This document shows, one piece after another, positions 1 through 11,503 of a stretch of 20,493 nucleotides of DNA. The notes under the pieces were generated by a model. It had not been told where the DNA came from, searched no databases, and saw only the letters and a list, made by a program, of their open reading frames with translations. The position numbers were made by a program, and so were the translations under genes. Location of the stretch: positions 1 through 20,493 of the IMG/VR virus record IMGVR_UViG_3300027749_000551; one strand, 5' to 3'. The stretch comes from a virus. The number at the start of each line of letters is the position of its first letter. The first letter of the stretch is position 1.

Positions 1-88
1 CACAAACTAACTGCGTGCGCCCGCCCGCCCGCCGACACAAACCGCCGCCGCCTGCCCTGCCCCCGTGCGCCAACTGACTTTGGCTGGC

Positions 89-105
89 TGCCGTATAATA
101 CGGCA
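89..105. repeat. 17-bp palindrome, copy 1
   Basis: Perfect inverted repeat of 7-bp arms TGCCGTA/TACGGCA around TAA. It is upstream of the first gene, and TTGAC motifs follow at 109 and 120. It is identical to the copies at 196 and 2941. Confidence 0.9.
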
Positions 106-119
106 CTATTGACCCGCTA

Positions 120-148
120 TTGACTTTCTAAGTCCTATATGGTAGGCT
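120..148 (+). promoter_or_regulatory. Weak promoter candidate for the first small-gene cluster
   Basis: TTGACT (120-125) is followed by 17 nt and TAGGCT (143-148), which fits the loose actinobacterial TTGAC-N17-TANNNT pattern. The -10 match is poor. A second TTGACC lies at 109-114 with no good partner. If it is real, transcription would start near 155 and run through palindrome copy 2 before the ATG at 233. Confidence 0.3.
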
Positions 149-195
149 TAAGCCATAATCAAAGAACCACCTATGACCGCTTAAAAAACCCAAAT

Positions 196-212
196 TGCCG
201 TATAATACGGCA
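196..212. repeat. 17-bp palindrome, copy 2
   Basis: Perfect TGCCGTA-TAA-TACGGCA. It is followed by CTTAACGAAAGG and the ATG at 233, a leader shape shared with copies 3 and 4. The centre contains TATAAT, but I see no -35 hexamer at a suitable distance. Confidence 0.9.
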
Positions 213-232
213 CTTAACGAAAGGATAGAAAA

Positions 233-406
233 ATGGCGATTGACTTCGCGGCTCTGTTCGTTCAGAGCGCAAAGCAAGAACTAGCAAGCCAGCAAGTAGC
301 AGCAAATATCAAAGCCGAAGCAGACCGCGCTCAGGCTATCTACCAGAAGGGCGTGGACATGATGACCGAGAAGCGCACTTACGCATTATCATTGGACGGC
401 AAATGA
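233..406 (+). CDS. Small hypothetical protein (57 aa)
   Basis: I do not recognise this protein. It begins MAIDFAALFVQSAKQELASQ and is predicted to be mostly helical, rich in Ala, Gln and Lys. It has no signal peptide or transmembrane segment. The ATG at 233 is supported by AAGGAT at 221-226, about seven bases upstream, and the gene follows palindrome copy 2. Its stop overlaps the next ATG (ATGA), so it is probably translationally coupled to the 41-aa ORF at 403. It is the first of a three-gene micro-operon (233-635). Function unknown; small early phage proteins often act on host functions, which here is only a guess. Confidence 0.6.
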   Translation: MAIDFAALFVQSAKQELASQQVAANIKAEADRAQAIYQKGVDMMTEKRTYALSLDGK

Positions 407-528
407 GAGAGCGCGTGTTAAAGGTATTCGAGCAACGCGATAAGGGCTTGCTTACTGATTTTGAGATGTGGCAAGAAATTGCTGAAATTGCCGATTGGGC
501 ACTTAATGATATCGATAATACAAGATGA
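403..528 (+). CDS. Small hypothetical protein (41 aa)
   Basis: This 41-codon ORF starts at the ATG overlapping the previous stop (ATGA at 403-406) and ends in an ATGA overlap with the next ORF. It begins MRERVLKVFEQRDKG and is acidic in its second half (EIAEIADWALNDIDN), probably a helical pair. I do not recognise the family. The unbroken chain of stop/start overlaps is the main support that it is translated. There is no signal peptide or membrane segment. Confidence 0.5.
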   Translation: MRERVLKVFEQRDKGLLTDFEMWQEIAEIADWALNDIDNTR

Positions 529-635
529 GCCGCTGGCGTTGGACACCCGAGCATGGGTGGCAGGTTATTGACATTGGAGTCCAGATACGCTATGATTGGG
601 CTACAAGAAAATGGTACGAGGTGCGAGCGGTCTAA
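525..635 (+). CDS. Small Trp-rich hypothetical protein (36 aa)
   Basis: A short ORF coupled by ATGA to the preceding gene. It begins MSRWRWTPEHGWQ and contains five Trp residues in 36, an unusually high share. The predicted secondary structure is beta-like (WQVIDIGVQIRYDW, then KWYEVRAV). The length, the spaced aromatic residues and the coupling suggest a real micro-protein. A strong promoter (568-596) lies inside its 3' half and reads on into the tRNA-like element and the next genes. Function unknown. Confidence 0.45.
   Translation: MSRWRWTPEHGWQVIDIGVQIRYDWATRKWYEVRAV
568..596 (+). promoter_or_regulatory. Strong sigma70-type promoter inside the 36-aa ORF
   Basis: A perfect TTGACA (568-573), a 17-bp spacer and TATGAT (591-596, five of six consensus bases). 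Transcription would start near 603 and produce an RNA carrying the tRNA-like hairpin (649-691), palindrome copy 3 and the genes at 739 and 867. Confidence 0.65.
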
Positions 636-648
636 TCTCGTACTGGTG

Positions 649-692
649 GCTCACGAAGGGCAGTTACGCAGGTTCGAGTCCTGCGGTGAGCG
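649..692 (+). other. tRNA-like element: T-arm plus acceptor-like stem, no full cloverleaf
   Basis: Bases 668-684 form a canonical T-arm: stem GCAGG/CCTGC with the seven-base loop TTCGAGT. This includes an exact GGTTCGAGTCC box. Outside it GCTCAC (649-654) pairs with GTGAGC (686-691). Together they resemble the top half of a tRNA (acceptor plus T-arm). Only 13 nt lie between the two 5' strands, so there is no room for D and anticodon arms, and no encoded CCA follows. I tested upstream sequence for a standard cloverleaf: a D-arm-like CGAG/CTCG hairpin exists at 624-640, but the acceptor and anticodon stems do not pair. It could be a tRNA remnant, a tRNA mimic, or a tRNA-derived attachment site. 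Confidence 0.4.
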
Positions 693-698
693 CGTGAT

Positions 699-715
699 TG
701 CCGTATAATACGGCG
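699..715. repeat. 17-bp palindrome, copy 3
   Basis: TGCCGTA-TAA-TACGGCG; the 15-bp core is perfect and the outermost pair is lost. It lies between the tRNA-like element and the ATG at 739, followed by a TTTAACGAAAGG leader like that of copy 2. Confidence 0.9.
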
Positions 716-738
716 ACACTTTAACGAAAGGTAAGAAA

Positions 739-867
739 ATGTCTAATAGCGAGTTAGAGTTTGATGCTGAATACTTCGTTGATGATTTAACTGATGAAGA
801 GATTATTGAACTGGTTGAACTTAATGAGTGGGAACCCGACTTCGCAGATGAAGATGAGGATTTCTAA
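739..867 (+). CDS. Very acidic small protein (42 aa)
   Basis: Begins MSNSELEFDAEYFVDD and ends DFADEDEDF. About half of the residues are Asp or Glu and there is no Lys or Arg, so the charge is extremely negative. It has no family I can name. The ATG is preceded by GAAAGG (726-731) in a leader nearly identical to that of the first gene, downstream of palindrome copy 3. Its stop overlaps the next start (TAATG). Acidic small phage proteins can be DNA mimics or inhibitors. Another possibility is that it is a substrate for the amidoligase encoded 250 bp downstream. Both ideas are speculative. Confidence 0.6.
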   Translation: MSNSELEFDAEYFVDDLTDEEIIELVELNEWEPDFADEDEDF

Positions 868-1037
868 TGATTACGCTCACGCTTACCGAAATGGAAGTGA
901 ACGAGATACGCAAGGCTCTCCATTGGGCTGAGCAATCTCACCGCAAGTACGGGTTCAAGGCTCTCGAAAGTCTGGTATCTGACCTGCGCAGTAAGATAAA
1001 TGATGTCGTGCTTGACAATCATGACATGATAGTGTAA
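867..1037 (+). CDS. Small hypothetical protein (56 aa)
   Basis: Starts at the ATG overlapping the previous stop (TAATG, 865-869). It begins MITLTLTEMEVNEIRKALHW and reads as two amphipathic helices (EMEVNEIRKALHWAEQSH and KALESLVSDLRSKINDVV), compatible with a small helical hairpin or dimerising protein. There is no transmembrane segment. I do not recognise a family. The last codons overlap the promoter at 1012-1040, whose -10 box includes the stop codon. Confidence 0.55.
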   Translation: MITLTLTEMEVNEIRKALHWAEQSHRKYGFKALESLVSDLRSKINDVVLDNHDMIV

Positions 1038-1040
1038 AGT
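1012..1040 (+). promoter_or_regulatory. Strong promoter for the amidoligase operon
   Basis: Perfect TTGACA (1012-1017), a 17-bp spacer and TAAAGT (1035-1040). The expected start of transcription is near 1047, 65 nt before the amidoligase ATG. Palindrome copy 4 (1071-1087) then lies about +25 to +41, in the untranslated leader, where a bound protein could block elongation or an RNA hairpin could form. Confidence 0.65.
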
Positions 1041-1070
1041 AGTTCCTGTAAGTGATTGAGTTCGACCGCT

Positions 1071-1087
1071 TGCCGTATAGTACGGCA
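1071..1087. repeat. 17-bp palindrome, copy 4 (TAG centre)
   Basis: TGCCGTA-TAG-TACGGCA. Both 7-bp arms are perfect; only the central triplet differs from the other copies. The arms are therefore what is conserved. It lies between the 1012-1040 promoter and the amidoligase start. Confidence 0.88.
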
Positions 1088-1111
1088 GCACTTAATGAGA
1101 AGGGAAAGTAA

Positions 1112-2329
1112 ATGTTAGATGATGATGATGTAACTGACGTTCTATGCGCACACTGTGATAGTACGATAGACTCAGACAATTCTGTTCTATCTAATGCTGG
1201 AGAAATCCTATGCCCAGACTGTCGATATGTTTGCGAGAGATGCGACTGGATAGGTAATTCTTGGGATGAAAATCCCTGTGATGTAGAGGGTGACATATGG
1301 TGCCAGAACTGTACCGAGAACCATGCTTCTTGGTGCGAGCGACATGAAGAGTATGTCACCGATAGCATGTATTATATCCAAGATGTTCACGAGTCATGGT
1401 GCGTATACTGTGCGGAGAATCACTCCTCATGGTGTGAGGACTGTGACGAATACTATGCCGATGGTTGCCAATCCTGTAATGAGATAGGTCGAGATATCCA
1501 TGACTACAACTATCGCCCTGACCCTATCTTCCGCTCAGTAACGGGCGAGAATACCAAGTTATACTTTGGTATCGAGATAGAAACAGAGAAGGGGCGAGGT
1601 GGATTAGACCTTAGTTCCTGCTCTGAATATGCTGCTCAACTAGAGCATGAGTATAACCTTGCTTATCTAAAGCATGATGGCTCGCTTAATAATGGGTTCG
1701 AGATAGTTACGCACCCAGCCTCACACGCTTACTACAAGCAAGAGGATAACCCTCTATGGACTGTGCTTGAAGGGTTGCGTACTGGCTATGGCATGAAGTC
1801 ATGGGATACTGGTACCTGTGGACTCCATATCCATATCTCTCGAGCAGGCTTTAGTGGTGGCGCACACCAACACCGCTTTCTCCAACTGGTATATAGTAAT
1901 CCAGAGTTCTACTCTACCCTTGCTGGTCGAGAGGCTAGTCACTGGGCTAAGTTCGATGACATAGTTAGAAGTGAGCGACAGATGGATGAAAATGGTTACT
2001 GGCACTACAAACAATGGCGTTCATATAAGCATAAGTTAGTGCGCCATAACGATAACTGTAGCGACCGCTACTCTGCGGTCAATACTCTCAACCGCCACAC
2101 TCTAGAGATGCGTATCTTTAGGGGTAGTATCAACAGCAGGACAGTCAAGGCCGCGATAGACTTAGCGCATGCCAGCGTTGAGTACACACGAGAATTACGA
2201 GTTCCAGATGTATGGGCTAGTGCTTTAGTAGCCGAGAACTTCATGGAATATATCAAGATGAACGTAGAGTTATACCCAGAATTAAACGAGCGCATGAACA
2301 GATTGTTCACGCTTACAAACGCGGAATAG
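1112..2329 (+). CDS. Amidoligase-family protein with N-terminal multi-Cys zinc module
   Basis: The C-terminal two thirds (about 148-365) carry the signature of the putative amidoligase family (COOH-NH2 ligases of the glutamate-cysteine ligase/glutamine synthetase fold). Visible motifs are FGIEIE (152-157), KHDGSL (187-192), GFEIVTHP (195-202), CGLHIHIS (236-243) and LEMRIFRGS (331-339), expected to supply metal- and ATP-binding Glu, His and Arg. Such enzymes join a carboxyl to an amine with ATP. Residues 1-125 are a separate Cys-rich region with CxxC pairs at 12/15, 34/37, 41/44, 64/67, 97/100, 108/111 and 119/122, probably several zinc ribbons that could bind protein or nucleic acid. The start follows AGGGA (1101-1105). 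The glutamine amidotransferase lies ten bases downstream and probably works with it. Substrate unknown. Confidence 0.8.
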   Translation: MLDDDDVTDVLCAHCDSTIDSDNSVLSNAGEILCPDCRYVCERCDWIGNSWDENPCDVEGDIWCQNCTENHASWCERHEEYVTDSMYYIQDVHESWCVYCAENHSSWCEDCDEYYADGCQSCNEIGRDIHDYNYRPDPIFRSVTGENTKLYFGIEIETEKGRGGLDLSSCSEYAAQLEHEYNLAYLKHDGSLNNGFEIVTHPASHAYYKQEDNPLWTVLEGLRTGYGMKSWDTGTCGLHIHISRAGFSGGAHQHRFLQLVYSNPEFYSTLAGREASHWAKFDDIVRSERQMDENGYWHYKQWRSYKHKLVRHNDNCSDRYSAVNTLNRHTLEMRIFRGSINSRTVKAAIDLAHASVEYTRELRVPDVWASALVAENFMEYIKMNVELYPELNERMNRLFTLTNAE

Positions 2330-2339
2330 AGGATAGAAG

Positions 2340-3185
2340 ATGTGTTTATTATTAGTGGCGCAGCCTAACAGCACGCCAAAAAAGAAGGATTTAGAGTGTG
2401 CTTCATGTAATAACCCTCATGGCTTTGGCTATGCGGTAATCGCTGGCGACAAGATTATATCTGGTCGCGGTATGTCTGCTAAGAAGGTTATCAAGGAGTT
2501 CCTAGCGGTACGCAAGGAGTTCCCAAATAGTTATGCCATGTTCCATGCTCGCTTGGCTACGCATGGCGTCAAGAATGAGGAGAACTGTCACCCGTTCAAG
2601 GTAGGTGGCGACTCACGCACCTATCTAGCGCACAATGGTATTCTTGATGTAGATATCCATGCTACTGACAAGCGTAGCGATACCCGTATCTTTGCTGAGG
2701 ATATCCTGCCTAACTTCGGTGGCGTCAAAGGCTTAGACAATGACAACACGTGGATTATCCTTAGCAAGTGGGCAGTAGGTAGCAAGATTGCGGTGCTTAC
2801 TGTAGACCCTGATGCTAAGGATGATTGCTATATTATCAACGAGAAGTCAGGCTTCTGGGATAATGACGGGATATGGTGGAGTAATGACTCATACAAGCCC
2901 AGTAGTTGGTCTTCATATTGGGATACTAAATACGAAGCAGTGCCGTATAATACGGCAGGCAGCGTCGAACGCATAGAGGATGCTCATATAGAGTTCGAGT
3001 GCCCGTCATGTCTGGGCATAGCGTATGAAGATGCCAACCCTTATTGGTGCGAGTTCTGTAATACATGCTTCGATTGTAGCGGTATCTTCAATGATACCTG
3101 CTTATGCTGGACACCAGAGAATAAACGATATGCCTTTAAGGGCAAAGAAGGGGTAGGTTATTACAATGGCACATTCGACTTCTAA
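2340..3185 (+). CDS. Class-II glutamine amidotransferase with C-terminal zinc ribbon
   Basis: Starts MCLLLVAQ, so Cys2 is the expected N-terminal nucleophile once Met is removed, as in Ntn-type glutaminases. Other family marks are HGFGYAV (27-33), FHARLATHG (68-76), CHPF (83-86), LAHNG (96-100, oxyanion-hole Asn-Gly) and SDTR (113-116). The role is hydrolysis of glutamine to release ammonia for a partner synthetase or ligase. After about residue 215 comes a zinc-ribbon-like segment with Cys at 221, 224, 237, 240, 243, 246, 254 and 256. Palindrome copy 5 encodes VPYNTA (201-206) in the linker between the two parts, as if inserted at a tolerant spot. It is co-transcribed with the amidoligase (10-bp gap). 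The synthetase domain of asparagine synthases or GlmS is absent, so it probably serves the neighbouring ligase. Confidence 0.82.
   Translation: MCLLLVAQPNSTPKKKDLECASCNNPHGFGYAVIAGDKIISGRGMSAKKVIKEFLAVRKEFPNSYAMFHARLATHGVKNEENCHPFKVGGDSRTYLAHNGILDVDIHATDKRSDTRIFAEDILPNFGGVKGLDNDNTWIILSKWAVGSKIAVLTVDPDAKDDCYIINEKSGFWDNDGIWWSNDSYKPSSWSSYWDTKYEAVPYNTAGSVERIEDAHIEFECPSCLGIAYEDANPYWCEFCNTCFDCSGIFNDTCLCWTPENKRYAFKGKEGVGYYNGTFDF
2941..2957. repeat. 17-bp palindrome, copy 5 (inside the amidotransferase gene)
   Basis: Perfect TGCCGTA-TAA-TACGGCA within the coding sequence, in the frame CCG TAT AAT ACG GCA (PYNTA), between the catalytic domain and the Cys-rich tail. Confidence 0.9.
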
Positions 3186-3369
3186 GGTAGAGATAACACC
3201 AGTCCTATACGGACAGGATGTTCACAGTTATGTTACGCTTACTAAAACAGATGAGGGTGCCGTATTATACGGCACTTTCACCTCACTTGATGAGGCAATG
3301 GTTTGGGCTAAACAATTAATTAACGCTGAGATAATTCCCGTATATTATCCAGCATACAACAGGGGGTAA
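3166..3369 (+). CDS. Small hypothetical protein (67 aa)
   Basis: Overlaps the amidotransferase 3' end by 20 bp; the ATG at 3166 is preceded by GGGGTAGG. The protein begins MAHSTSKVEITPVLYG and has alternating hydrophobic stretches (SYVTLTKT, GAVLYGTF) followed by an amphipathic helix (SLDEAMVWAKQL), an alpha/beta pattern typical of small phage proteins. No membrane segment is visible. Palindrome copy 6 lies inside and encodes AVLYG. It may belong with the amidoligase pair by position. No family recognised. Confidence 0.6.
   Translation: MAHSTSKVEITPVLYGQDVHSYVTLTKTDEGAVLYGTFTSLDEAMVWAKQLINAEIIPVYYPAYNRG
3258..3274. repeat. 17-bp palindrome, copy 6 (inverted centre, inside a gene)
   Basis: TGCCGTA-TTA-TACGGCA: the centre TTA is the reverse complement of TAA, so this copy is in the opposite orientation to the others. 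It lies in the coding sequence of the 67-aa protein. Confidence 0.88.
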
Positions 3370-3370
3370 C

Positions 3371-3505
3371 ATGTTACGAATAACTGACGTTAATATGCGC
3401 GTATACTTGATAGATGTGATAGCCGCACTGTCGGCCAACACAAACCATGAGCACGATAAACTTATCGCGCAGACCAGACTAATGCTACAGATGTTGGAAG
3501 GATAA
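3371..3505 (+). CDS. Small hypothetical protein (44 aa)
   Basis: The ATG at 3371 follows the previous stop by one base and is preceded by AGGGGG (3361-3366). The protein begins MLRITDVNMRVYLIDVIAAL and is probably two helices; the second (HEHDKLIAQTRLMLQMLEG) is amphipathic with a Leu/Met face. The hydrophobic stretch YLIDVIAAL is too short and charged for a clear membrane anchor. Position, ribosome binding site and tight packing support it as a gene. No family recognised. Confidence 0.5.
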   Translation: MLRITDVNMRVYLIDVIAALSANTNHEHDKLIAQTRLMLQMLEG

Positions 3506-3506
3506 T

Positions 3507-3764
3507 ATGAATATAGATACCAAAGAACTGCTTCAGACCTATGATGTAAATCTATACGATACTAGGACTACTGGAACCATGAAGGAGTTTGAGTTAGTCA
3601 ACCCACTCAATAACCAATCCTTTACTGGTCGCCTGTACTGGAACGAGAATGACGGATATGATATCTATTGGGACAAGCATGCGCCAGAGTTGGCGAAGCG
3701 TGACTACTTCGAGTCAGCCTTAGACGCTGCGTTAGTGCCGTATAATACGGCGGAGGAAGTATGA
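3507..3764 (+). CDS. Small hypothetical protein (85 aa)
   Basis: Begins MNIDTKELLQTYDVNLYDTR. The middle (SFTGRLYWNENDGYDIYWD) reads as beta strands rich in aromatic and acidic residues. The end (ALVPYNTAEEV) is encoded by palindrome copy 7. It is preceded by GGAAGGAT six bases before the ATG. The gene overlaps the WhiB start by ATGA, indicating coupled translation. No homologue recognised; it could be a small regulator or inhibitor, but nothing in the sequence shows which. Confidence 0.6.
   Translation: MNIDTKELLQTYDVNLYDTRTTGTMKEFELVNPLNNQSFTGRLYWNENDGYDIYWDKHAPELAKRDYFESALDAALVPYNTAEEV
3736..3752. repeat. 17-bp palindrome, copy 7 (immediately before the WhiB ribosome binding site)
   Basis: TGCCGTA-TAA-TACGGCG inside the last codons of the 85-aa gene (VPYNTA). 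GGAGGA (3752-3757) and the WhiB ATG (3761) follow directly. A hairpin here would abut the ribosome binding site. Confidence 0.9.
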
Positions 3765-4084
3765 TAGGGAACTGTACGGGGCACCAAGACCCCGATATGT
3801 GGTTCCCTGAGATGCCACCTAATCGACCTAGCATTGCTGGCACTGCGGTACTAGCACAGCGAGTCAATGAAGCCATTAGCCTTTGTAATTCCTGCCCTTC
3901 TAAGGTAGAATGTGACCTAGAAGGTGGCAAGCCCGAGAACCGTGCCTATGGCATATGGGGTGGCGTACTAGCAGGTGAAAGATTACTTGAGTCAGGCGTT
4001 AAGCGTGACGAACTGCCTAACTGGGCACCAGAAACATCTGCGATAGATTTATACAATCGCTTATCACCTTGGCTGGAAAGGTAA
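3761..4084 (+). CDS. WhiB-family iron-sulfur transcription regulator
   Basis: A 107-aa protein with the WhiB pattern: Cys5 in CTGHQDPDMWFPE, then Cys42, Cys45 and Cys51 (C-x2-C-x5-C), and the GIWGG turn at 64-68 followed by a short Arg/Lys-containing tail. In this actinobacteria-specific family the four Cys bind a [4Fe-4S] cluster and the protein acts with the principal sigma factor. Phage WhiB proteins are known to affect host gene expression and superinfection. Translation starts within the preceding stop (ATGA) and after a strong GGAGGA site that touches palindrome copy 7. Loss of the palindrome-bound factor or structure could therefore control it. It is the strongest clue that the host is an actinobacterium. 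Confidence 0.88.
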   Translation: MIGNCTGHQDPDMWFPEMPPNRPSIAGTAVLAQRVNEAISLCNSCPSKVECDLEGGKPENRAYGIWGGVLAGERLLESGVKRDELPNWAPETSAIDLYNRLSPWLER

Positions 4085-4087
4085 TGA

Positions 4088-4465
4088 ATGAAGCGAATCA
4101 TAGCAATAGCAGTAGTTGCCGTTTTACTAGTGCTATGTCACCAATCAAAGACTGCCGAGCCAGTTCAAAGGGAATGGACTGTATCGGATAGTAAGTCATA
4201 CGCTAAGAAGCAACTCTTAGCATGGGAGAAACACCAGTACGCATGTCTCGATATACTATGGACACGCGAGTCCAATTGGCAAGCCAATGCGTACAATCAT
4301 CAGAAAGTAATGGGTCGCAATGCTTATGGGATACCCCAAATACTGGGGCTTAAGCGTGGGACTCACCCAACTGTACAGATTGACAAAGGCTTGGAGTATA
4401 TCATATATAGGTATGGGACACCTTGTATGGCATGGAAATTTCACCAACGGAAGGGGTGGTACTAA
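4088..4465 (+). CDS. Secreted or anchored lytic-transglycosylase-like protein
   Basis: 125 aa. Residues 1-16 are a hydrophobic signal or anchor (MKRIIAIAVVAVLLVL) followed by Cys17, but the residue before it is Leu, so a lipobox is doubtful. The rest matches the short transglycosylase-like domain of actinobacterial proteins: LDILWTRESNW (54-64) with Glu61 as likely catalytic acid, NAYGIPQ (78-84), and RYGTPCMAWKFHQRKGWY at the C-terminus. It would cut peptidoglycan glycan strands outside the membrane. It sits in the early-type block, away from the lysis cassette at 12 kb. Cell-wall remodelling, superinfection effects or an accessory lysin are possible. It begins four bases after the WhiB stop. 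Confidence 0.72.
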   Translation: MKRIIAIAVVAVLLVLCHQSKTAEPVQREWTVSDSKSYAKKQLLAWEKHQYACLDILWTRESNWQANAYNHQKVMGRNAYGIPQILGLKRGTHPTVQIDKGLEYIIYRYGTPCMAWKFHQRKGWY

Positions 4466-4639
4466 ATGCCAACGTATGAATATAAATGTGAAAAGTGCGA
4501 GCAACTCTACACCATACAGCGCCACGTAGATAAAAGAGACAACGCGGTGCTGTGTGACTGTGGTTGGGGAGCCACAAGAGTGTACTCAGCACCAGCAATT
4601 AAGTTCAATGGTACTGGTTTCTATAGCACAGGAGGGTAA
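4466..4639 (+). CDS. FmdB-type zinc-ribbon protein (57 aa)
   Basis: Begins MPTYEYKCEKCEQLYTIQR, the hallmark of the FmdB-type small zinc ribbon (CxxC at 8/11). A second knuckle CDC lies at 30/32, then the RVYSAPAIKFNGTGFYSTGG-type ending common in this family. Zinc binding is expected; the family's molecular role is poorly defined and it is often called a regulator. The start immediately follows the upstream stop (TAAATG). The same ending motif occurs in actinobacterial homologues, so the gene could be host-derived. Confidence 0.75.
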   Translation: MPTYEYKCEKCEQLYTIQRHVDKRDNAVLCDCGWGATRVYSAPAIKFNGTGFYSTGG

Positions 4640-4735
4640 ATGGAGTACAGCAAAGAAGAGTTAGAAAAGCGTGAGATGTTGATTCAAAGTATATTAAAAT
4701 CTTTAGAAGAGATAGGGAAAGATGAAGAACTCTAA
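4640..4735 (+). CDS. 31-aa charged helical micro-protein
   Basis: Starts right after the FmdB stop (TAAATG) with GGAGGG six bases upstream. The product begins MEYSKEELEKREMLIQSIL and is a single highly charged helix with heptad-like Leu/Ile spacing, possibly a short coiled coil. Its end overlaps the next gene by 14 bp. It could be only a leader for coupling, but the ribosome binding site is good. Confidence 0.45.
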   Translation: MEYSKEELEKREMLIQSILKSLEEIGKDEEL

Positions 4736-5150
4736 CTGGGACTTAGACCTCAGAGATGGTGAGCAAGGAGAGAGCAGGGTCGCAGACCTGCTTTCCCTTG
4801 ACACTGTAGAGGTAAAGACAGACCGACGCTGGCATCAAACTGGTAACCTCTATATTGAAACTGAGTGTTACTATAAGAATTCACAGGCTTGGGAACCATC
4901 AGGCTTACAGGTTAGCAAGGCTACGCATTGGGCATTCGTACTAGAAGATAGTGTGCTGATAGTTCCTTTATTTAGATTGAAGGAAGCCGTCTATGAACTA
5001 GGTCGAGAAGTTACTTGTAACATACCGCCCAACCCCTCAAGAGGGTACTTGATAACCCCAGCAGTATTGCTGGAGTATATCAAGAACGCTAGACAGCAAG
5101 AGATTGCTGCGCATGAAGCATATGAAGCATGGAACAATGGACGAGGTTGA
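4722..5150 (+). CDS. PD-(D/E)XK-like nuclease (putative)
   Basis: 142 aa beginning MKNSNWDLDLRDGEQGES. A nuclease-like core is visible: Glu17 in GEQGES, then Asp27-x2-Glu30-Val-Lys32 (DTVEVKTD), and TGNLYIETE (40-48), matching the order of catalytic residues in restriction-endonuclease-fold proteins. The remainder (SKATHWAFVLEDSVLIVP) fits the later strands. It would cut or process DNA with Mg2+. It ends the rightward block, with only two bases before the convergent sigma-like gene, and no terminator hairpin is seen there. It could be a host-DNA nuclease or recombination nuclease. Confidence 0.6.
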   Translation: MKNSNWDLDLRDGEQGESRVADLLSLDTVEVKTDRRWHQTGNLYIETECYYKNSQAWEPSGLQVSKATHWAFVLEDSVLIVPLFRLKEAVYELGREVTCNIPPNPSRGYLITPAVLLEYIKNARQQEIAAHEAYEAWNNGRG

Positions 5151-5152
5151 GG

Positions 5153-5878
5153 TTAGTTAGACGCATCCTCATCATCATTAGTCCGTTCACTACTATCGCT
5201 ATCTGGGCTGGAATCTGGTTCGGATTCGATTTGTTCATGCGACTGTGTAGATTTCTTTACGTCATCTCTGTCTGAGAAAGGCTTGAAGCCACCAAGTCTA
5301 ATCACCAGTTTACGTATAGCGCGGTTATGACGCATTCGCGCAGCGTCTTCACTACCTAGTTTCATCTCAGCAGCAATAGCACCATAGTCTAGCGACTCAG
5401 CATACTTATAGAAGAGCACCGTCCTATCCTCGATGCTTAACTTATGGTACGCAGCATCCACTTCGACCATCATCGCCATCATGTTACCGCCCTCTGCTGG
5501 TGCTGGTGGTCGACTTGGACCCGCTAGATTTAACTTATGCGATACACCAAACTCACCTCGTAACACAGCAGGGAGTAACGCTTCAACCATATCAGATTCG
5601 TAATAAAATAAATCTGATGTTTCATAGCCAACTGTTTTTGCTTTCCACTTCTGACAATAATCTAATGCTTGATTGCGAAGCGAACGATAGATTAAGTTCT
5701 TAGCATCCTTATGTCCGATTGCCTCCCAGTCATCCAGTTTATTTGGATGCTCGAGGAACCATTGGTATAAGGATTGTTTGATATCCTCTAATTCTACCAT
5801 GTCATATTTTCTGTGATACTCAGAGGCTACGCCTACTACGATATAATCCCAAGGCTCAATACGATTCCAGTCCATCAT
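5153..5878 (-). CDS. Sigma-70-like transcription factor (putative)
   Basis: 241 aa. Residues about 25-85 resemble region 2 of sigma factors (LEDIKQSLYQWFLEH, then LIYRSLRNQALDYCQKWK). About 137-195 resemble region 4 with a helix-turn-helix (KLSIEDRTVLFYKYAESLDY, GAIAAEMKLGSEDAARMRHN). A long linker (110-135) and an acidic, Ser-rich tail (from about 205, ending DDEDASN) flank it. It may direct host RNA polymerase to late phage promoters. It is the last gene of the leftward operon, so it would be made late in the replication phase. The start has two adjacent ATGs at 5878 and 5875. Divergent; similarity is judged by eye. Confidence 0.62.
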   Translation of the reverse strand: MMDWNRIEPWDYIVVGVASEYHRKYDMVELEDIKQSLYQWFLEHPNKLDDWEAIGHKDAKNLIYRSLRNQALDYCQKWKAKTVGYETSDLFYYESDMVEALLPAVLRGEFGVSHKLNLAGPSRPPAPAEGGNMMAMMVEVDAAYHKLSIEDRTVLFYKYAESLDYGAIAAEMKLGSEDAARMRHNRAIRKLVIRLGGFKPFSDRDDVKKSTQSHEQIESEPDSSPDSDSSERTNDDEDASN

Positions 5879-5879
5879 T

Positions 5880-6371
5880 TTAATTGCCCTCTGTCTTTAT
5901 AAATAACACCCAATGCGTTCCCATTCTTTTCCCTGAGGGATGTCCCAGAACTGCTTTCTCTGGAGTGAGTGATAGAATTTCTTTTAATGAAATTGATACT
6001 TCATTCCACTTAAAAATTAAAGTGCCTCCATTTTTTAATACTCTAAAGCACTCAGCAAAGCCCTGCTTAATATCATCTTGCCAAGTATCTTTGTCTAAGA
6101 CTCCATACTTTTTGCGCATCCAAGATTTCTCAGACAGATTGAGCATGTGTGGTGGGTCAAATACTACGCATTGAAAAGACTTATCCGAGTAAGGTATGTT
6201 CCTAAAGTCCATAACTTCATCTGGTTCTATATGTATAGTCTGTCCATTAGTAAGAAGATGTGTTTCTTTCTCCCTAATATCTCCAAATAGAACTCGTTCA
6301 TCCTTCTTATCAAAATAAAATGAACGCATAGAGGAAGCAGGGTCTAGTATAAGTTTTGTCACTAGCCCCAA
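5880..6371 (-). CDS. SAM-dependent DNA methyltransferase (DPPH type)
   Basis: 163 aa. The motif FDPPHM (71-76) is the catalytic DPPx motif of amino-methyltransferases, followed by FRVLKNGGTLIFKWNE, a typical strand after motif IV. The upstream ILDPASSMRSFYFDKKDER and LFGDIR segments occupy the place of the SAM-binding motif. In the phage family I recall, that motif reads more like DPCCGxRxF; here the Cys-Cys-Gly is replaced by Ala-Ser-Ser. It probably methylates adenine or cytosine amino groups in phage DNA. The TTG start at 6371 has AAGGGA upstream; a GTG at 6362 overlapping the previous stop (TAGTG) is an alternative that loses three residues. Confidence 0.7.
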   Translation of the reverse strand: MGLVTKLILDPASSMRSFYFDKKDERVLFGDIREKETHLLTNGQTIHIEPDEVMDFRNIPYSDKSFQCVVFDPPHMLNLSEKSWMRKKYGVLDKDTWQDDIKQGFAECFRVLKNGGTLIFKWNEVSISLKEILSLTPEKAVLGHPSGKRMGTHWVLFIKTEGN

Positions 6372-7102
6372 CGTTTCCCTTCAACAATAAACGACCCATC
6401 CTTCTGAATAGGGATAGTAACTGGCACAACTGTGCGACCATCAACGTAGAGCATGCCGAAGCCCTGTTGCCACGTGAATAGTCCACCTTTAATATACTTG
6501 GCCTGCTTATAGTTCATTAGATTGCCAACTTCCATGCCCCAGATAGTTTGTGTTGGCGAAGTTCCGTAGGCTTGGGTATGGTGCGCCAGTCCCATTCTGT
6601 GGGTATGTCCGCAAACTACTGACTTGCCTGTGCGCATTGCTAAACCTAGGGCTGTAAGCCCACCAGTAGACTTCATGGCACCTTCATCGCCGTGCATTAA
6701 TAACCAGTTAGGTGCTAACTCATACGGCTTAGTATGGTATGTAGCGCCGATAGAATCCAAGCGCAAGAACTCTGGAAGTTCCAACTCGGGTAGCCCGAGC
6801 AACCCAGGCGCACGCATCATTACTGTATTGTATAGTCGGTCAGTATGATTAGAACGAATGATATGTTTAACCTTGAGTGCTTCAAGCACGCGTGTAGTTT
6901 CGTCGCGGTCGCGACCGATAGAACGCTCATACTCTAGAGGTGTGCCTTTAGCCCACTTAGAAATAGTCTGCATGTCCATTTCATCACCAACTGAAACTAC
7001 TTCGGTTGGCTTATACGCCTTGATAAACTTTGCTAGGTTATCTACGGCTCGCTTGTCATGATAAGGTATCTGTAAATCAGACACACAGACTATTGTTTTC
7101 AT
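6362..7102 (-). CDS. Calcineurin-like metallophosphoesterase
   Basis: 246 aa with the metallophosphoesterase motifs in order: Asp9 in SDLQIPYHD (Gln11 replaces the usual His), VGDEMD (38-43), RSNHTDR (83-89, Asn-His), MHGDEG (136-141) and GHTHR (165-169). These coordinate two metals and hydrolyse phosphoesters. Phage members act on nucleic acid ends, nucleotides or protein phosphates; the substrate cannot be read here. It starts in a TAATG overlap with the HNH gene and overlaps the methyltransferase, so it is part of the tight operon. Confidence 0.8.
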   Translation of the reverse strand: MKTIVCVSDLQIPYHDKRAVDNLAKFIKAYKPTEVVSVGDEMDMQTISKWAKGTPLEYERSIGRDRDETTRVLEALKVKHIIRSNHTDRLYNTVMMRAPGLLGLPELELPEFLRLDSIGATYHTKPYELAPNWLLMHGDEGAMKSTGGLTALGLAMRTGKSVVCGHTHRMGLAHHTQAYGTSPTQTIWGMEVGNLMNYKQAKYIKGGLFTWQQGFGMLYVDGRTVVPVTIPIQKDGSFIVEGKRWG

Positions 7103-7377
7103 TACTTGGCTCGTCTCTTGTTCTCTTTGGCAACGTTCTTCTTATGAGTCATTGCTTGTAAGTTCTTGATGCCATCGCGCCCAGCGCGACCACCATTATC
7201 CTTATGGTCTACGTCTACAGACTTTTTCAACTTCTTACCAGTAGCCTTCTCATAATCCAAACGTGCTTTATTGGTAGAGGTAGTCTCCGTGGTTCCGTCC
7301 TTCTTCTTCTTTTTAATAACATAGATAGGACGTCCACCATTTTGTTTACTGCCTTTGTAGGGTCCAAAGATTTTCAT
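7102..7377 (-). CDS. HNH endonuclease-like protein
   Basis: 91 aa from the ATG at 7377. I chose this start over a TTG at 7389 because it overlaps the upstream stop (ATGA) and has GGAG (7384-7387) at the right spacing. The HNH signature is DHKDNGG (Asp57-His58), then NLQAMTHKKN with Asn72, His78 and Asn81. The first half is very basic (KKKKKDGTTE), suited to DNA binding. HNH proteins nick or cut DNA; this could be a homing-type nuclease or a replication/recombination helper. There is no sign of an intron. Confidence 0.7.
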   Translation of the reverse strand: MKIFGPYKGSKQNGGRPIYVIKKKKKDGTTETTSTNKARLDYEKATGKKLKKSVDVDHKDNGGRAGRDGIKNLQAMTHKKNVAKENKRRAK

Positions 7378-7457
7378 TTGCTTCTCCAAGTGTCATTAAA
7401 GGTTGCGATACAATACCAACTACATAAAACGATTGGAATTAACAGTAGCCATTTCAT
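7374..7457 (-). CDS. 27-aa membrane micro-protein
   Basis: This very short ORF is linked on both sides by overlaps: its ATG overlaps the DUF1599 stop (TAATG) and its TGA overlaps the HNH start (ATGA). The product starts MKWLLLIPIVLCSWYCIATF, a single hydrophobic helix, then a short polar tail with two positive charges (NDTWRSK). It looks like a tiny inner-membrane protein. Upstream GTGGGA is a modest ribosome binding site. The double coupling is the main evidence that it is a gene. Function unknown. Confidence 0.5.
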   Translation of the reverse strand: MKWLLLIPIVLCSWYCIATFNDTWRSK

Positions 7458-7828
7458 TATTTATCCCACTTATCTCTTAGTAGTAACATGCCAATAATGG
7501 CGTAGTTTGCCATATCTTTGAATGAATCCTCAAGACTTTCGTGTTCTGGTTCATTCTTTGAATCAACTAGGTTATTAATACGTGCCAACTTATCGTGCAT
7601 CCGTACACGTAAACCATTGATGGCACCGCCAGGAGCATCAGCGATGTTACGTGGACCGTAGTCGCGGTGCTTAGAAAGCAGAAGCGACATCAGTTCATCG
7701 TATATAATCCTTACTTCGTCTGCGAATTCAAGAGTGGGACGCTTAGGTTTATATTCAACTGATTTTCCTGGATGTGAAAACTGTTCACCTTTAATCCTTG
7801 GCCCACCAAGTGATTTATAATCTGCCAT
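7457..7828 (-). CDS. DUF1599 / nucleotide-modification-associated protein
   Basis: 123 aa. The core SKHRDYGPRNI (52-62), then GLRVRMHDKLARINNLV and LEDSFKDMANYAIIGMLLL, matches the DUF1599 (nucleotide modification associated domain 1) pattern. It is a small all-helical phage protein often found near nucleotide or DNA-modification genes and similar in feel to MazG-type pyrophosphatases. The conserved Arg, Lys, Asp and His residues suggest a nucleotide-related pocket, but activity is not established. Here it sits between the zinc-finger protein and the micro-protein in the replication operon. No base-modifying enzyme other than the methyltransferase is visible nearby. Confidence 0.7.
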   Translation of the reverse strand: MADYKSLGGPRIKGEQFSHPGKSVEYKPKRPTLEFADEVRIIYDELMSLLLSKHRDYGPRNIADAPGGAINGLRVRMHDKLARINNLVDSKNEPEHESLEDSFKDMANYAIIGMLLLRDKWDK

Positions 7829-7834
7829 ATCTCT

Positions 7835-8203
7835 TCACGCTCCATCTTCGTTATCATCGGATTCATTTTCTAGTAGTTCAGCCAGAGCCTTATCAAAGTC
7901 TGACATTTGTTCACGTACTACCATATCTTCTATGATAGTTTTCATATTTCCTGGACTTGCTTCTGCTGCGTATAATGTTGCGTATGTTGATTGGACTATG
8001 GAACTAATCATGTCAGGGTCGTCGATATAACTATAGATACAGCGAAGTAATGAGCCAACCATAAGCGTATAGCCATTAGGCAGGATTAACTTAGGGTCAA
8101 ACTCTTCTTCACCGCCTGTCTCAACTAGATGGTCAGTAGCCTCGAAGATGTTATCGAACTGTTGACCACACTCTTTACATGGTGGAATAGGTATATCATT
8201 CAT
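7835..8203 (-). CDS. Hypothetical protein with N-terminal zinc finger
   Basis: 122 aa beginning MNDIPIPPCKECGQQFDNIF. CKECGQQF...ATDHLVETG (9-31) resembles a C2H2-like zinc finger (Cys9, Cys12, then a single His at 25), so it may be degenerate. The rest is helical (YTLMVGSLLRCIYSYIDD; MKTIIEDMVV) with an acidic end. It overlaps the primase 3' end by eight bases. It could be an accessory of the primase or helicase; no family I can name with confidence. Confidence 0.6.
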   Translation of the reverse strand: MNDIPIPPCKECGQQFDNIFEATDHLVETGGEEEFDPKLILPNGYTLMVGSLLRCIYSYIDDPDMISSIVQSTYATLYAAEASPGNMKTIIEDMVVREQMSDFDKALAELLENESDDNEDGA

Positions 8204-8825
8204 CGATTGTTAATCCCATCTTATCCCGAATATAGTCCGCTCCGAACTTGACAAAACAACTATTGACGTCTTCTCCGTCGGGCATTGATACGACTGTAAC
8301 TGGCAATTCTTTGGCAAGACTATTGGCAAATTCTTTTCCTGGTTGGTCGCCATCTGAAAAAATAAAAACTCGCTCAAAGTCTGCAAGCAATCGTGTGTAA
8401 TGTTTCTTCCATGAGTTAGCGCCTGGAACTCCGACGCAAGGAATGCCAACACACTTAGACATAGTAATGGTATCAAGTTCACCTTCGCACACCCCAATCC
8501 AATCCCCTGCTACTTCGATATCTAATACGTTGTACATCTTGGTCTCGGCTCCAGCCATACCCATATACTTAGGTTCTACTGCTGGGTTAAGCGAGCGAAA
8601 TCGTAAGTCTACTACACCAGTCTTAGTAATGTAAGGTATTGCCAAGCGACCTTGATACTGCTCATGTCCTGGCTCAGGGTCAACGACGACGCCTAATCGA
8701 GCCACTCGCGCTACTTCCCTTGTTATTCCCCGACTTGCTAGGTAATCTTCCGCCTGAAAGATGCTTGCCGCGTACTTGGCTGTGGCTCTCCCCAGTAATT
8801 CCTTCTGCGAAAGACTTTGCTTCAC
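8196..8825 (-). CDS. DnaG-like primase, Toprim part
   Basis: 209 aa. AEDYLASRGI (26-35) and QGRLAIPYITKTG (58-70) match the region before the catalytic core of DnaG-type primases. The Toprim motifs are CEGELD (113-118) and FSDGDQPG (156-163), expected to bind Mg2+ and synthesise RNA primers. It lacks its own zinc-binding domain, which is encoded upstream in another frame (8680-9048). The two ORFs overlap by 146 bp and this one is in the +1 frame relative to the first. It could be made from the GTG at 8825 (only a weak AGAGAG site upstream) or joined to the first by +1 frameshifting near 8790-8800. Confidence 0.78.
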   Translation of the reverse strand: MKQSLSQKELLGRATAKYAASIFQAEDYLASRGITREVARVARLGVVVDPEPGHEQYQGRLAIPYITKTGVVDLRFRSLNPAVEPKYMGMAGAETKMYNVLDIEVAGDWIGVCEGELDTITMSKCVGIPCVGVPGANSWKKHYTRLLADFERVFIFSDGDQPGKEFANSLAKELPVTVVSMPDGEDVNSCFVKFGADYIRDKMGLTIDE

Positions 8826-9048
8826 GTATATCTACTCTCTCTTGTCTTGCAATAATTTGGATACTGTTGCCGTTCATTCCGCAAGCGAAACAATTGAACA
8901 GATTATCCTTGGTATTAAAACTAGCACTTGCGTGTGAATCATTGTGGAACGGACACTTGATGGTTACCTGCCCTGATGAGCGAGTAATGTTTGCCCCATA
9001 ATGTTTCAGTACTGCTACAATATCTGGTAAATCATCATCCGAATACAT
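8680..9048 (-). CDS. DnaG-like primase, CHC2 zinc-finger part
   Basis: 122 aa. CPFHND (32-37) and CFACG (53-57) give the CHC2 zinc finger (Cys32, His35, Cys53, Cys56) that binds template DNA in DnaG primases. DIREAKSFAEGITG (about 73-86) is the usual helix after it. Beyond that the sequence (ending SIRRRR) is low-complexity and basic and looks like out-of-frame translation of the Toprim ORF's 5' part. Real similarity therefore probably ends near 8790. Together the two ORFs make one complete primase. Confidence 0.75.
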   Translation of the reverse strand: MYSDDDLPDIVAVLKHYGANITRSSGQVTIKCPFHNDSHASASFNTKDNLFNCFACGMNGNSIQIIARQERVDIREAKSFAEGITGESHSQVRGKHLSGGRLPSKSGNNKGSSASGSIRRRR

Positions 9049-9400
9049 CGCCCAACCTCATAACTAGATACGCATCATCTATAGACTTGCCTCTTGCTTT
9101 GATTACTATTGCTGCAATTACTTCGTCACGTTTCTTGCCTCTTGCTTCCGCATAATGCGCTGCTTCTGTTTGAGCCTCTTTCGTCCAACCGCTGAGGTCA
9201 ATAGCGTTGCCCGCCCCTGGGGCTTTGCATTCAATGACCCCAATGCTGCCCAAGAAGTCTGCTCTAACCGCAACATCGCCCTCGTCCTTTGCGCCCGCAC
9301 GAGCCAACCTCTCAGCATCATAACCACGATTACGGAACCAATCACGTATATCAGTTTCAAATGTTGCTCCTCTAGCCTTATGACTTTTCCTAGTTGTCAT
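9035..9400 (-). CDS. Holliday-junction-resolvase-like PD-(D/E)XK nuclease
   Basis: 121 aa beginning MTTRKSHKARGATFETDIRD. The catalytic pattern of the resolvase/restriction fold is visible: Glu15 in GATFETDI, Asp42 in DEGDVAV, and Glu57-x-Lys59 in IGVIECKAPG. Length and order fit archaeal Hjc-like and phage resolvases, which cut four-way junctions to resolve recombination intermediates before packaging. It starts in an ATGA overlap with the helicase and overlaps the primase start by 14 bp, a logical place in a replication operon. It could equally be a RecB-like small nuclease. Confidence 0.75.
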   Translation of the reverse strand: MTTRKSHKARGATFETDIRDWFRNRGYDAERLARAGAKDEGDVAVRADFLGSIGVIECKAPGAGNAIDLSGWTKEAQTEAAHYAEARGKKRDEVIAAIVIKARGKSIDDAYLVMRLGDVFG

Positions 9401-10179
9401 GCGTTCTCTGGAATATCTTCTATGTACATGTACTCTGGGTTAAATGCTAACCAAGTCATTAGCGTTCCTCCAGCATCTGCTCTTCCATAACGATTTTTGA
9501 CAGACGCCACGCCCATAGATGTGCCGACAGTTCCGAGCGTACATATGAGCGCAGGGAGTTGAGAGACCTTACCTTGGATAGCCGACCTCGGCTGGCAAGG
9601 ATTTCCAGGTACTGCTTCCGAAGTGTGATGTAGTACGACAATCGCTGCGTTAGTTGCTCTCGCAAGGTACTTCAACTCCTTCATAATTGCTCGCATAGAT
9701 GCGAACTCCTCGCCACCATCGGTGGCTACGTCCATCAAGTTATCTAATACAATAAGGGTTGGCGGACAACCCCATAGTTCTTCAAATGCTTGTACTTCTT
9801 CATCAATATCTTGTAGTGTAGGTGATGATTCGAACGACCAGACTATATGGCTTCCTTTTTGGAGGACTGCTTTAGTCCAACCAACATCAGTATTAAGTTT
9901 CTGTTCAACATCGCTCTGGCTCTTGCCAGAAATCATGGATGCCAAGCGCATAGCCATTGTGTGTGCATTAGTATCTGCTGATATATACAATGTTGGAACA
10001 TTAGTCTTGAGTGCTAACGCTAGCGCAAGTGTTGATTTACCTGCCCCAGGAGCACCAGCAAACATAGAAACTTCTGAACGCCTAATAATAATCTTGTTCG
10101 CTTCGAATGCTTTAAAGCAACTAGGTAGGGGTTCGCCACCAATAGAGGCTCGTCCCACAGACCTTACGAGTGTACGCAT
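9397..10179 (-). CDS. RecA/DnaB-like replicative ATPase
   Basis: 260 aa RecA-fold ATPase. Walker A is GAPGAGKST (42-50), Walker B is TLIVLDN (141-147), followed by VVLHHT (181-186, polar sensor) and KNRYGRADAGG (228-238) with candidate Arg fingers. The length matches the short single-domain DnaB-like/RepA-type helicases of phages, lacking the DnaB N-terminal domain. It probably unwinds DNA with the split primase encoded just downstream; a DnaC-like loader or recombinase role is an alternative. The ATG at 10179 has AAGGGG upstream and the stop overlaps the resolvase start. Confidence 0.8.
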   Translation of the reverse strand: MRTLVRSVGRASIGGEPLPSCFKAFEANKIIIRRSEVSMFAGAPGAGKSTLALALALKTNVPTLYISADTNAHTMAMRLASMISGKSQSDVEQKLNTDVGWTKAVLQKGSHIVWSFESSPTLQDIDEEVQAFEELWGCPPTLIVLDNLMDVATDGGEEFASMRAIMKELKYLARATNAAIVVLHHTSEAVPGNPCQPRSAIQGKVSQLPALICTLGTVGTSMGVASVKNRYGRADAGGTLMTWLAFNPEYMYIEDIPENA

Positions 10180-10223
10180 TGTATCCCCTTCCCTAGTTAC
10201 TTAAAATGGAAACTGCTCTTGTT

Positions 10224-10619
10224 CTAGTTGACTGGCTTGCACTGGTCCGCGCCCTGAGGCATCGGACAGACCCACATCGCGTATGGATTTCCCGTCTTGC
10301 TGGAGATTCCCGATTTGTACTTCCGAGCCCCGTGCTGACATGTCGGACCCGTTGTTGGGGTTGCCGTAACTGGTGCTACCGCTGCCTGGGGAGGTACGAA
10401 TGAGGGCGGAGGCGCGATGTTTGTAGTGGAACTCGGCATCGATAAAGGGGCTGCCACCGACGCACCTGTTACCAACTTCTGCACCGCAGCAATCTGGGTA
10501 GCATAGTCACCTATGCCTTCAAGCAATACGCTGAGTTCATCAGACGTGTTAGCACGAACGTTAATCATAGCATCGCCAGGAATCTTATATGATACCTGTA
10601 ACTTCCATTCTTCGCTCAT
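10224..10619 (-). CDS. Hypothetical DNA-metabolism protein with C-terminal zinc motif
   Basis: 131 aa. An N-terminal half (MSEEWKLQVSYKIPGDAMIN, then helix SVLLEGIGDYATQIAAVQ) is followed by a Pro/Ala/Thr-rich linker (57-90). The C-terminal segment CQHGARKYKSGISSKTGNPY...WVCPMP...C carries three Cys and one His, probably one zinc site. Its place between the Cas4-like nuclease and the helicase suggests single-strand DNA binding or mediator work, but no OB-fold motif is recognisable. It starts by ATGA overlap. A 44-bp gap with only a ribosome binding site separates it from the helicase. Confidence 0.62.
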   Translation of the reverse strand: MSEEWKLQVSYKIPGDAMINVRANTSDELSVLLEGIGDYATQIAAVQKLVTGASVAAPLSMPSSTTNIAPPPSFVPPQAAVAPVTATPTTGPTCQHGARKYKSGISSKTGNPYAMWVCPMPQGADQCKPVN

Positions 10620-11227
10620 TTATCTTCCTTCTTTGTTGAGAACTGACAATGCGCTGTGAGTCCACAGCGATACTGACAGTTGTTAGTGTTAGGCAAGAAT
10701 ACACCTGCCTTGCGTGCTTTGTCAAAGCCTTCGACTAAATACTCCATCTTGTCGTATGTATACTCTGACAAATCAATCATCTCAACGGTATTGCTACCAC
10801 GAGACATGTAATAATTACCCCAGTTAACTTCTACGCCAAAAGCCTGCTCAAGTCCTAGTTTATAGAAACCTAACTGGAGAGTACTGGTTGGCACTTGCTG
10901 TGAGGTCTTAAGGTCTACGATGACCAGTTGACCATTAACCTCAAAAACTCTATCGATAAACATCTTGATAGGAACACCAGCAACAATAGGTGTTAGTCCT
11001 AGTTCTACTGCTGGCACTCCTTCTGGGGTAGTCCAAATCTTCCAGTTAGGGTTAGCCTTACGCCAAGCAATGTAGTTTTCGACCCACATAGGGCCAGTAG
11101 ATTGCCAGAACTTCTCATCTTCCTTGTTGGGGTTAGCCTTGGTAGCACGACCACCAACACGAGCATTGGTTAGGTCAATATCACCTTTAGACTCTGCCCA
11201 TGCTTTATCCCAAAGTACTTGACTCAT
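10616..11227 (-). CDS. Cas4-like exonuclease, C-terminal (catalytic) subunit
   Basis: 203 aa carrying the RecB-family PD-(D/E)XK motifs: Glu75 (VELGL), Asp92 (FIDRVF), Asp105-x-Lys107 (VDLKT), and the QxxxY motif Gln118-Tyr122. C-terminal Cys184, Cys188 and Cys194 are three of the four iron-sulfur ligands of Cas4-type nucleases. The N-terminal part with the first Cys and the GxxxH motif is encoded by the preceding ORF. This ORF has its own ATG in an ATGA overlap and a perfect AAGGAG (11233-11238), so it is translated separately. Likely role: 5'-3' or 3'-5' DNA end processing for recombination. Confidence 0.78.
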   Translation of the reverse strand: MSQVLWDKAWAESKGDIDLTNARVGGRATKANPNKEDEKFWQSTGPMWVENYIAWRKANPNWKIWTTPEGVPAVELGLTPIVAGVPIKMFIDRVFEVNGQLVIVDLKTSQQVPTSTLQLGFYKLGLEQAFGVEVNWGNYYMSRGSNTVEMIDLSEYTYDKMEYLVEGFDKARKAGVFLPNTNNCQYRCGLTAHCQFSTKKEDK

Positions 11228-11415: not shown

Positions 11416-11421
11416 ATTTTG

Positions 11422-11450
11422 AGTATACACTAGCGTTAGTTGACTGTCCA
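11422..11450 (-). promoter_or_regulatory. Leftward promoter for the replication operon
   Basis: On the minus strand TGGACA (11450-11445), a 17-bp spacer and TATACT (11427-11422), five of six consensus bases in each. It predicts a start near 11415, the ATG of the first gene, so a leaderless transcript. Confidence 0.7.
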
Positions 11451-11480: not shown

Positions 11481-11503
11481 ATAGAGATTGATGTGTGTAT
11501 ACT
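11474..11503 (+). promoter_or_regulatory. Rightward promoter facing the small membrane protein gene
   Basis: TAGACA (11474-11479), an 18-bp spacer and TATACT (11498-11503) preceded by TG. It mirrors the leftward promoter and predicts transcription from about 11510. Confidence 0.6.

Follow-up and report, generated by a model that had tools for sequence, protein, structure and literature searches.

A lineage-specific set of palindromes in the early operon of freshwater actinophages and its co-variation with one phage gene

The operators of lambdoid repressors (17 bp, symmetry 8-1-8) and the conserved inverted repeats of phiC31 are similar in length and dyad symmetry to the sites described here, and in both systems heteroimmune relatives carry different operators. 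In the cluster A mycobacteriophages (L5, Bxb1, TipsytheTRex) a phage-encoded immunity repressor is paired with lineage-specific short sites, the stoperators, which are 13 bp long, asymmetric and oriented and number more than 20 per genome; the repressor is a monomer with a helix-turn-helix (HTH) and a second domain (PMC6550527, PMC9283540). A block of initiation together with a roadblock to elongation has been proposed for stoperators (PMC9283540). In the cluster K phages (TM4 and its relatives), inverted repeats termed SAS and extended SAS (ESAS) are found shortly upstream of non-structural gene starts. The ESAS consists of two imperfect 17-bp repeats, 4–13 bp apart, beside the 13-bp SAS, and its consensus varies by subcluster, for which the authors proposed DNA-binding proteins with different specificities (PMC3203893).

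The palindromes analysed here were noticed in a viral DNA stretch of 20,493 nt (IMG/VR record IMGVR_UViG_3300027749_000551), hereafter the window. Like the stoperators, they are located at promoters and between genes, and motif and cognate candidate protein (f18, see below) diverge jointly. In contrast to the stoperators, they are 17–18-bp palindromes without orientation, present in 5–11 copies in one 7-kb region (204 of 207 sites in near-complete genomes lie within 7.2 kb), and f18 is unrelated by sequence to the L5/Bxb1 repressor. Cluster A phages are temperate, whereas none of the 24 near-complete genomes of the phages studied here was found to encode a tyrosine or serine integrase or ParA (PF00589, PF00239, PF13614). 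The HTH_3 repressor of a lambda-type CI/Cro system was likewise found in none of the 24. Because these searches covered four families only, non-standard lysogeny is not excluded. The geometry of the sites is nonetheless compatible with repression of initiation and arrest of elongation as in cluster A, although function is inferred. With the ESAS the sites share a position upstream of gene starts and a lineage-specific consensus, but here the whole site is a single palindrome (8-1-8 or 9-0-9), and the window contains no match with up to 2 mismatches to the 13-bp SAS GGGATAGGAGCCC, an element expected at the ribosome-binding site. The cognate protein of the ESAS is unnamed in PMC3203893, whereas a candidate can be named for the present sites. 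The literature searched gave no account of such an operator-regulator system in phages of Nanopelagicales.

Palindromes of the early region and their turnover

The palindrome of the window is TGCCGTAT-N-ATACGGCA, 17 bp with 8-1-8 symmetry. All seven copies listed in an earlier note on this DNA are present (operators 1–7 in Table 1) and, as it had also claimed, there is none in the rest of the window, even with up to 3 mismatches. Its statement that the copy number is beyond chance was borne out by 14 strand matches versus 2.0 expected, a number that 0 of 100 dinucleotide-preserving shuffles reached. The symmetry had to be redrawn: the note had described perfect 7-bp arms around a variable central triplet, but the arms are 8 bp long and only one central base is free, the other two bases of the triplet being arm bases. 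The two exceptions at the last base (copies 699 and 3736) stand, and copy 1071 deviates at the innermost base of the arm. The copies at 89, 196, 699 and 1071 are intergenic or in leaders, and those at 2941, 3258 and 3736 are within reading frames. A role as intrinsic terminators was rejected, since only one copy resembles a terminator, and only on its reverse strand. Contig IMGVR_UViG_3300009182_000477, which is 99.95% identical to positions 1–16060 of the window and reaches 1,462 bp further left, adds two copies (L138:552 and L138:1320), one on each side of a gene for a 205-aa protein; the full set is therefore nine.

Table 1. Features of the window. Promoters are consensus matches.
Feature	Position	Strand	Remarks
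Operator 1, TGCCGTATAATACGGCA	89..105	no strand	upstream of the early-operon promoter region
Candidate early promoter, TTGACT-N17-TAGGCT	120..148	+	between operators 1 and 2; read from sequence
Operator 2	196..212	no strand	leader, 20 nt ahead of the ATG (233) of a 57-aa gene
Promoter-like TTGACA-N17-TATGAT (11/12)	568..596	+	precedes structured RNA
Conserved structured RNA, tRNA acceptor/T-arm-like	645..694	+	directly upstream of operator 3
Operator 3, TGCCGTATAATACGGCG	699..715	no strand	leader, 23 nt ahead of ATG 739
Promoter-like TTGACA-N17-TAAAGT	1012..1040	+	precedes amidoligase gene
Operator 4, TGCCGTATAGTACGGCA	1071..1087	no strand	30 nt past the -10 of promoter 1012..1040; 24 nt ahead of ATG 1112
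Amidoligase-like gene (Amidoligase_2)	1112..2329	+	anchor for finding relatives
Class II glutamine amidotransferase-like gene	2340..3185	+	
Operator 5	2941..2957	no strand	variable linker within amidotransferase gene; retained in close relative L104
Operator 6, TGCCGTATTATACGGCA	3258..3274	no strand	within 67-aa reading frame 3166–3369; retained in L104 with 2 mismatches
Operator 7, TGCCGTATAATACGGCG	3736..3752	no strand	3' end of reading frame 3507–3764; ends 8 bp ahead of the ATG of the WhiB-like gene
WhiB-like gene	3761..4084	+	binder candidate, not supported
Sigma-like gene	5153..5878	-	binder candidate, not supported

The exact 17-mer was found in 21 viral stretches, and every viral contig that carries it more than once is a relative of the window. 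Among 84,980 bacterial and archaeal species genomes (257 Gb) it gave 26 single scattered hits, against about 30 expected by chance; these were in unrelated organisms, none of them a visible actinobacterial host. A host regulon or prophage element was rejected on the basis of this chance-level result, which indicates that the palindrome does not belong to the host, nor is it common among prophages; judged by its distribution among sequences, it is an element of the phage lineage. The closest records of named phages are OX376641 and OX376640 (∼70–72% DNA identity over 9–12% of the query), which are phages LanE43-AprF5 and LanE43-AprE7 (hereafter F5 and E7). Since these were isolated on 'Ca. Planktophila' (PMC10202952), we infer that the host of the window phage is probably a Nanopelagicales actinobacterium.

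Alignments of the amidoligase and amidotransferase retrieved ∼100 related contigs, all of them metagenomic, of which 24 were treated as near-complete (38–42 kb, one of 32 kb). A palindrome occurs in 5–11 copies at conserved positions of the early operon in ∼80 related contigs of freshwater actinophages, but its sequence is specific to the lineage, with ∼20 versions among these contigs. Nearly every relative whose early region is intact has its own repeated palindrome. Relatives lacking the motif without a replacement would have refuted the reading put forward in the earlier note; what was found is the opposite, namely another palindrome at the same places. When the 24 near-complete genomes were rotated to the start of the amidoligase gene, 204 own-type sites (6–11 per genome) fell within the region from −2.6 to +4.6 kb and 3 elsewhere. 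The motifs of other types are nearly absent from each genome, except between types that differ by 1–2 bases.

Refinement of the half-sites yielded two classes, odd-centred (8-1-8) and even-centred (about 9-0-9). The odd-centred half-sites are TGCCGTAT, TGCTGTAT, TGTCATAT, CACTATAT, CACTTTAT, CATATTAT, TGTATGAT, TGTCCGAT, TGTAAGAT, TGTATGAA, TGTATTAA and TGTCTGAA, with TGTACGAA in one additional genome; the even-centred ones are TGTCGGGCT, TGTCGGACT, TGTCGGCT-like, GTTCGGTT, GTTCGGCT, GGTCGGCT, ATCCGTTT and TGTTCGTGT. Type labels were assigned by script, and small variants were lumped. Within the odd class, deviation is least at arm positions 2–4 and 6 from the centre and greatest at the outer base. 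Sites of one type are exchanged for those of another in place: in 141 orthologous site pairs of different type, identity is 70% or more in each of the two 50-bp flanks (maximum 97%), as in the pair TGTCATATACTATGACA and TGCTGTATAATACAGCA. The counterpart of operator 7 is a CACTTTAT palindrome in one relative (L142) and a CACTATAT palindrome in another (L133).

The sites are also placed consistently with respect to genes and promoters. A Shine-Dalgarno (SD) sequence and start codon are present within 60 nt of 110 of the 204 sites, compared with 22% of random positions. In relatives with a detected -35-like hexamer, the ortholog of operator 1 ends 4–35 bp upstream of it. About half of the 24 genomes have a promoter-like pair between the first two operators, and in many the second site is downstream of the -10 of the early promoter. 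Most of the 24 also have a strong promoter ahead of the amidoligase gene, with spacing similar to that in the window, and there too the promoter is upstream of a site that precedes the start codon.

Co-variation of the palindromes with gene f18

The palindromes, confined to the early region and replaced in place, co-vary with a single phage gene, f18. This gene (L138:684-1301) is the first of the early operon, codes for a protein of ∼205 aa and starts 0.78 kb left of the window. Clustering assigned it to 23 of the 24 near-complete genomes, and 85 distinct homologs were found. Phages E7 and F5, in which f18 was not found, likewise lack repeated palindromes. The f18 proteins share 68% identity when their phages have the same operator type and 23% when the types differ. 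Whether two phages share a type is predicted from f18 with an AUC of 0.97 (0.94 with core-gene divergence removed); the values for 11 other gene families are 0.39–0.79. On a tree of 82 f18 proteins the 20 types require 20 label changes (minimum 19; mean of shuffles 62.7), and the deepest split (100/99) separates even-centred (18-bp) from odd-centred (17-bp) operators. For the 56 contigs containing all the genes compared, the f18 tree needs 14 label changes, which is the minimum, against 26 for the amidoligase, 27 for the amidotransferase, 27 for the WhiB-like, 28 for the lysozyme-like and 23 for the sigma-like protein. Linkage of f18 to nearby sites could inflate the co-variation, but it does not suffice to account for this contrast, since the amidoligase gene, which is itself flanked by operators, fits much worse.

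The co-variation can be followed to individual residues. Among 1,288 pairs of residue and operator position, the strongest were residue 53 with outer bases 1–2 and residue 76 with base 4, followed by residue 56 with base 4. In all 12 odd-centred types an A at base 4 goes with Gln (one His) at residue 76, a C with Glu or Asp, and a T with Pro, Ser or Ala; no column separating base 4 as perfectly was obtained in any of 2,000 label shuffles. In the even-centred types this rule holds only in part. Residue 53 is Arg or Lys where the outer bases are TG and not otherwise, with a single exception among the 12 GTTCGGTT sequences; taken alone this is weaker evidence, because ∼25% of label shuffles equal its perfect column. 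It should be kept in mind that label shuffles ignore phylogeny, which residues and operator bases share. Gln-A and Glu/Asp-C pairs are typical of major-groove contacts.

The AlphaFold model of f18 is all-helical and confident (pLDDT 87; about 95 in the N-terminal domain). Residues 53 and 56 lie on a predicted helix 52–62 and residue 76 on a predicted helix 72–87, and from the model we infer that the two may form an HTH-like arrangement. As f18 has no recognisable DNA-binding fold, the reading helices were inferred from co-variation. No known family in Pfam, PHROGs or NCBIfam matched f18; a tblastn search of 50,697 phage records, including many mycobacteriophages, gave a best E-value of 0.8 over 40% of the query, and a fold search of PDB and BFVD gave no match with E <0.001 (best BFVD hit E 4e-3, TM about 0.3). 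With no convincing relative among families, phage records or folds, f18 is apparently an undescribed family and, in the absence of binding data, can only be said to look like a DNA-binding one.

Possible function and competing explanations

The earlier note had considered an operator/stoperator-like set, and this reading is supported by the confinement to the early operon, the in-place swaps and the tracking of one phage gene. We consider it likely, without data on binding or expression, that the palindromes are DNA operators of f18 acting as a dimeric phage regulator that damps or silences the early genes in a stoperator-like manner. The existence of the sites, their restriction to the early region, their replacement in place and their co-variation with f18 are observed; that f18 binds them directly, forms a dimer and represses, and why specificity should have diverged, are inferences. 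One subunit of a probably dimeric f18 would contact each half-site through helices 52–62 and 72–87. The sites around its own gene and the early promoter would allow autoregulation, and early transcription would be damped or silenced by promoter occlusion combined with roadblocks within the transcribed region, in the fashion of stoperators. Specificity appears to have been switched about 20 times, regulator and all sites presumably changing together, and such switching would probably spare co-infecting or superinfecting relatives from cross-regulation. An early-to-late shut-off with protection from cross-regulation is the role we favour, as an inference made without expression or infection data. 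Only tentatively, and with rather more doubt than conviction, do we suggest that these virulent-looking phages possess a new class of regulator with ∼20 orthogonal specificities and a residue-base code, forming an immunity or superinfection-exclusion system in which 5–11 dispersed sites switch in step with one gene.

Several other explanations have to be weighed. Were f18 an activator or dual regulator, sites upstream of the -35 would recruit RNA polymerase and downstream sites would tune expression. The position of the operator 1 orthologs, ending 4–35 bp upstream of the -35-like hexamer, would suit this, as would the f18 promoter, whose -35, read by eye, matches the consensus but whose -10 is weak. 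The majority of the sites, however, follow a promoter, within a leader or a gene, and it is hard to see what an activator would do there; we regard this as unlikely, if still worth keeping in mind. The palindromes might instead work at the RNA level, as leader or intergenic hairpins to which f18 or some other factor binds after the manner of the lambda N/boxB antiterminator or of a translation regulator, an option also raised in the earlier note. Operators 2–4 of the window are indeed transcribed, 20–24 nt ahead of start codons, and RNA-protein pairs could diverge in specificity too. Yet among 536 distinct sites the one-sided transitions comprise 141 G-U and 161 A-C on the transcript strand; G-U being no commoner than A-C, a duplex DNA site, for which equal numbers are predicted, is favoured over a hairpin, which would favour G-U. 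Operator 1, moreover, is upstream of its promoter, and the pairs formed by residue 76 and base 4 fit major-groove contacts. The hairpin reading is thus disfavoured and seems to us quite improbable.

A slim chance remains that the binder is the WhiB-like protein, the sigma-like protein or a host factor and that f18 co-varies through linkage only. Proteins of the WhiB-like and sigma-like kinds occur in most of these phages, and also in E7 and F5 (PMC10202952), and the earlier note had named both as candidates. They are not supported: the WhiB and sigma trees require 27 and 23 changes where f18 requires 14, the 17-mer is at background among bacterial genomes, and the pairing of f18 residues with base 4 is perfect in the 12 odd types. 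Equally improbable is that the sites organise DNA in a nucleoprotein complex for partition, compaction or replication, as with KorB or ParB. Several spaced palindromes across ∼6 kb with a single cognate protein would be in keeping with it, but ParA was found in none of the 24 genomes, and the sites keep to leaders and promoters instead of being gathered in an AT-rich centromere-like block. As to small mobile palindromes copying themselves around the early region, another idea of the earlier note, the three window copies within reading frames might point that way. Conserved positions, base-for-base exchange within near-identical flanks (replacement, not insertion) and co-variation with one protein have already largely refuted it, and its likelihood is negligible.

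If the f18-operator reading is correct, about 20 specificities are available at identical positions in otherwise similar genomes, and several operator types seem to be separated by only one or two changes in the half-site. Because the identity of one operator base can be predicted from a single protein position, single-residue switches are directly testable, and since the whole site set changes with the regulator gene, the matching of protein to DNA sequence reads as a code. None of the libraries searched describes the regulator family, and the phages group with relatives of phages isolated on 'Ca. Planktophila', which ranks with the most abundant bacteria in fresh water. The question is raised what phages in which no lysogeny genes are recognised would need diversified operators for.

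The neighbourhood of operator 3 contains a further conserved element. A tRNA gene near this site was rejected, as ARAGORN and Rfam gave no match, and the element is a different structured RNA. It occurs in 29 distinct variants among the relatives, with compensatory changes in 8 of its 14 pairs.

Two lineages of f18 proteins with a common operator type

The proteins of the candidate regulator f18 that are associated with the TGCCGTAT-type operator, the putative f18 site, fall into two lineages, represented by the groups of the related viral contigs L131 and L058 (∼26–30% identity). The operator is identical for both lineages, and both retain Arg53, Arg/Lys56 and Glu/Asp76, at positions that co-vary with operator bases. 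That such diverged proteins share the operator and these three residues suggests either convergence or retention of an ancestral specificity.

Structured RNA adjoining operator 3

Immediately upstream of operator 3 lies a conserved structured RNA of 50–56 nt, the shape of which resembles the acceptor stem and T-arm of a tRNA; it lacks a normal D arm and a normal anticodon arm. Relatives carry 29 distinct variants, with compensatory changes at 8 of the 14 pairs. ARAGORN identified no tRNA at this position, and an Rfam search with the RNA returned no significant match. A strong promoter-like pair is located nearby.

Features of the window and of the related viral contig L142
Feature	Source	Position	Strand	Remarks
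Promoter-like pair	window	568-596		
Structured RNA, tRNA acceptor/T-arm-like	window	645-694	+	variants in relatives, compensatory changes
Amidoligase-like and amidotransferase-like genes	window	1112-3185		
Several long reading frames	window	17423-20435	-	glycine-rich, internal repeats
Additional reading frame	L142	8993-9586		

Other genes

The amidoligase-like gene adjoins one for a class II glutamine amidotransferase-like protein, and the two occupy the same early-operon position in all 24 related genomes. In L142 the additional frame is inserted into the replication module; its product looks, by eye, methyltransferase-like. The glycine-rich frames probably encode tail or fibre proteins.
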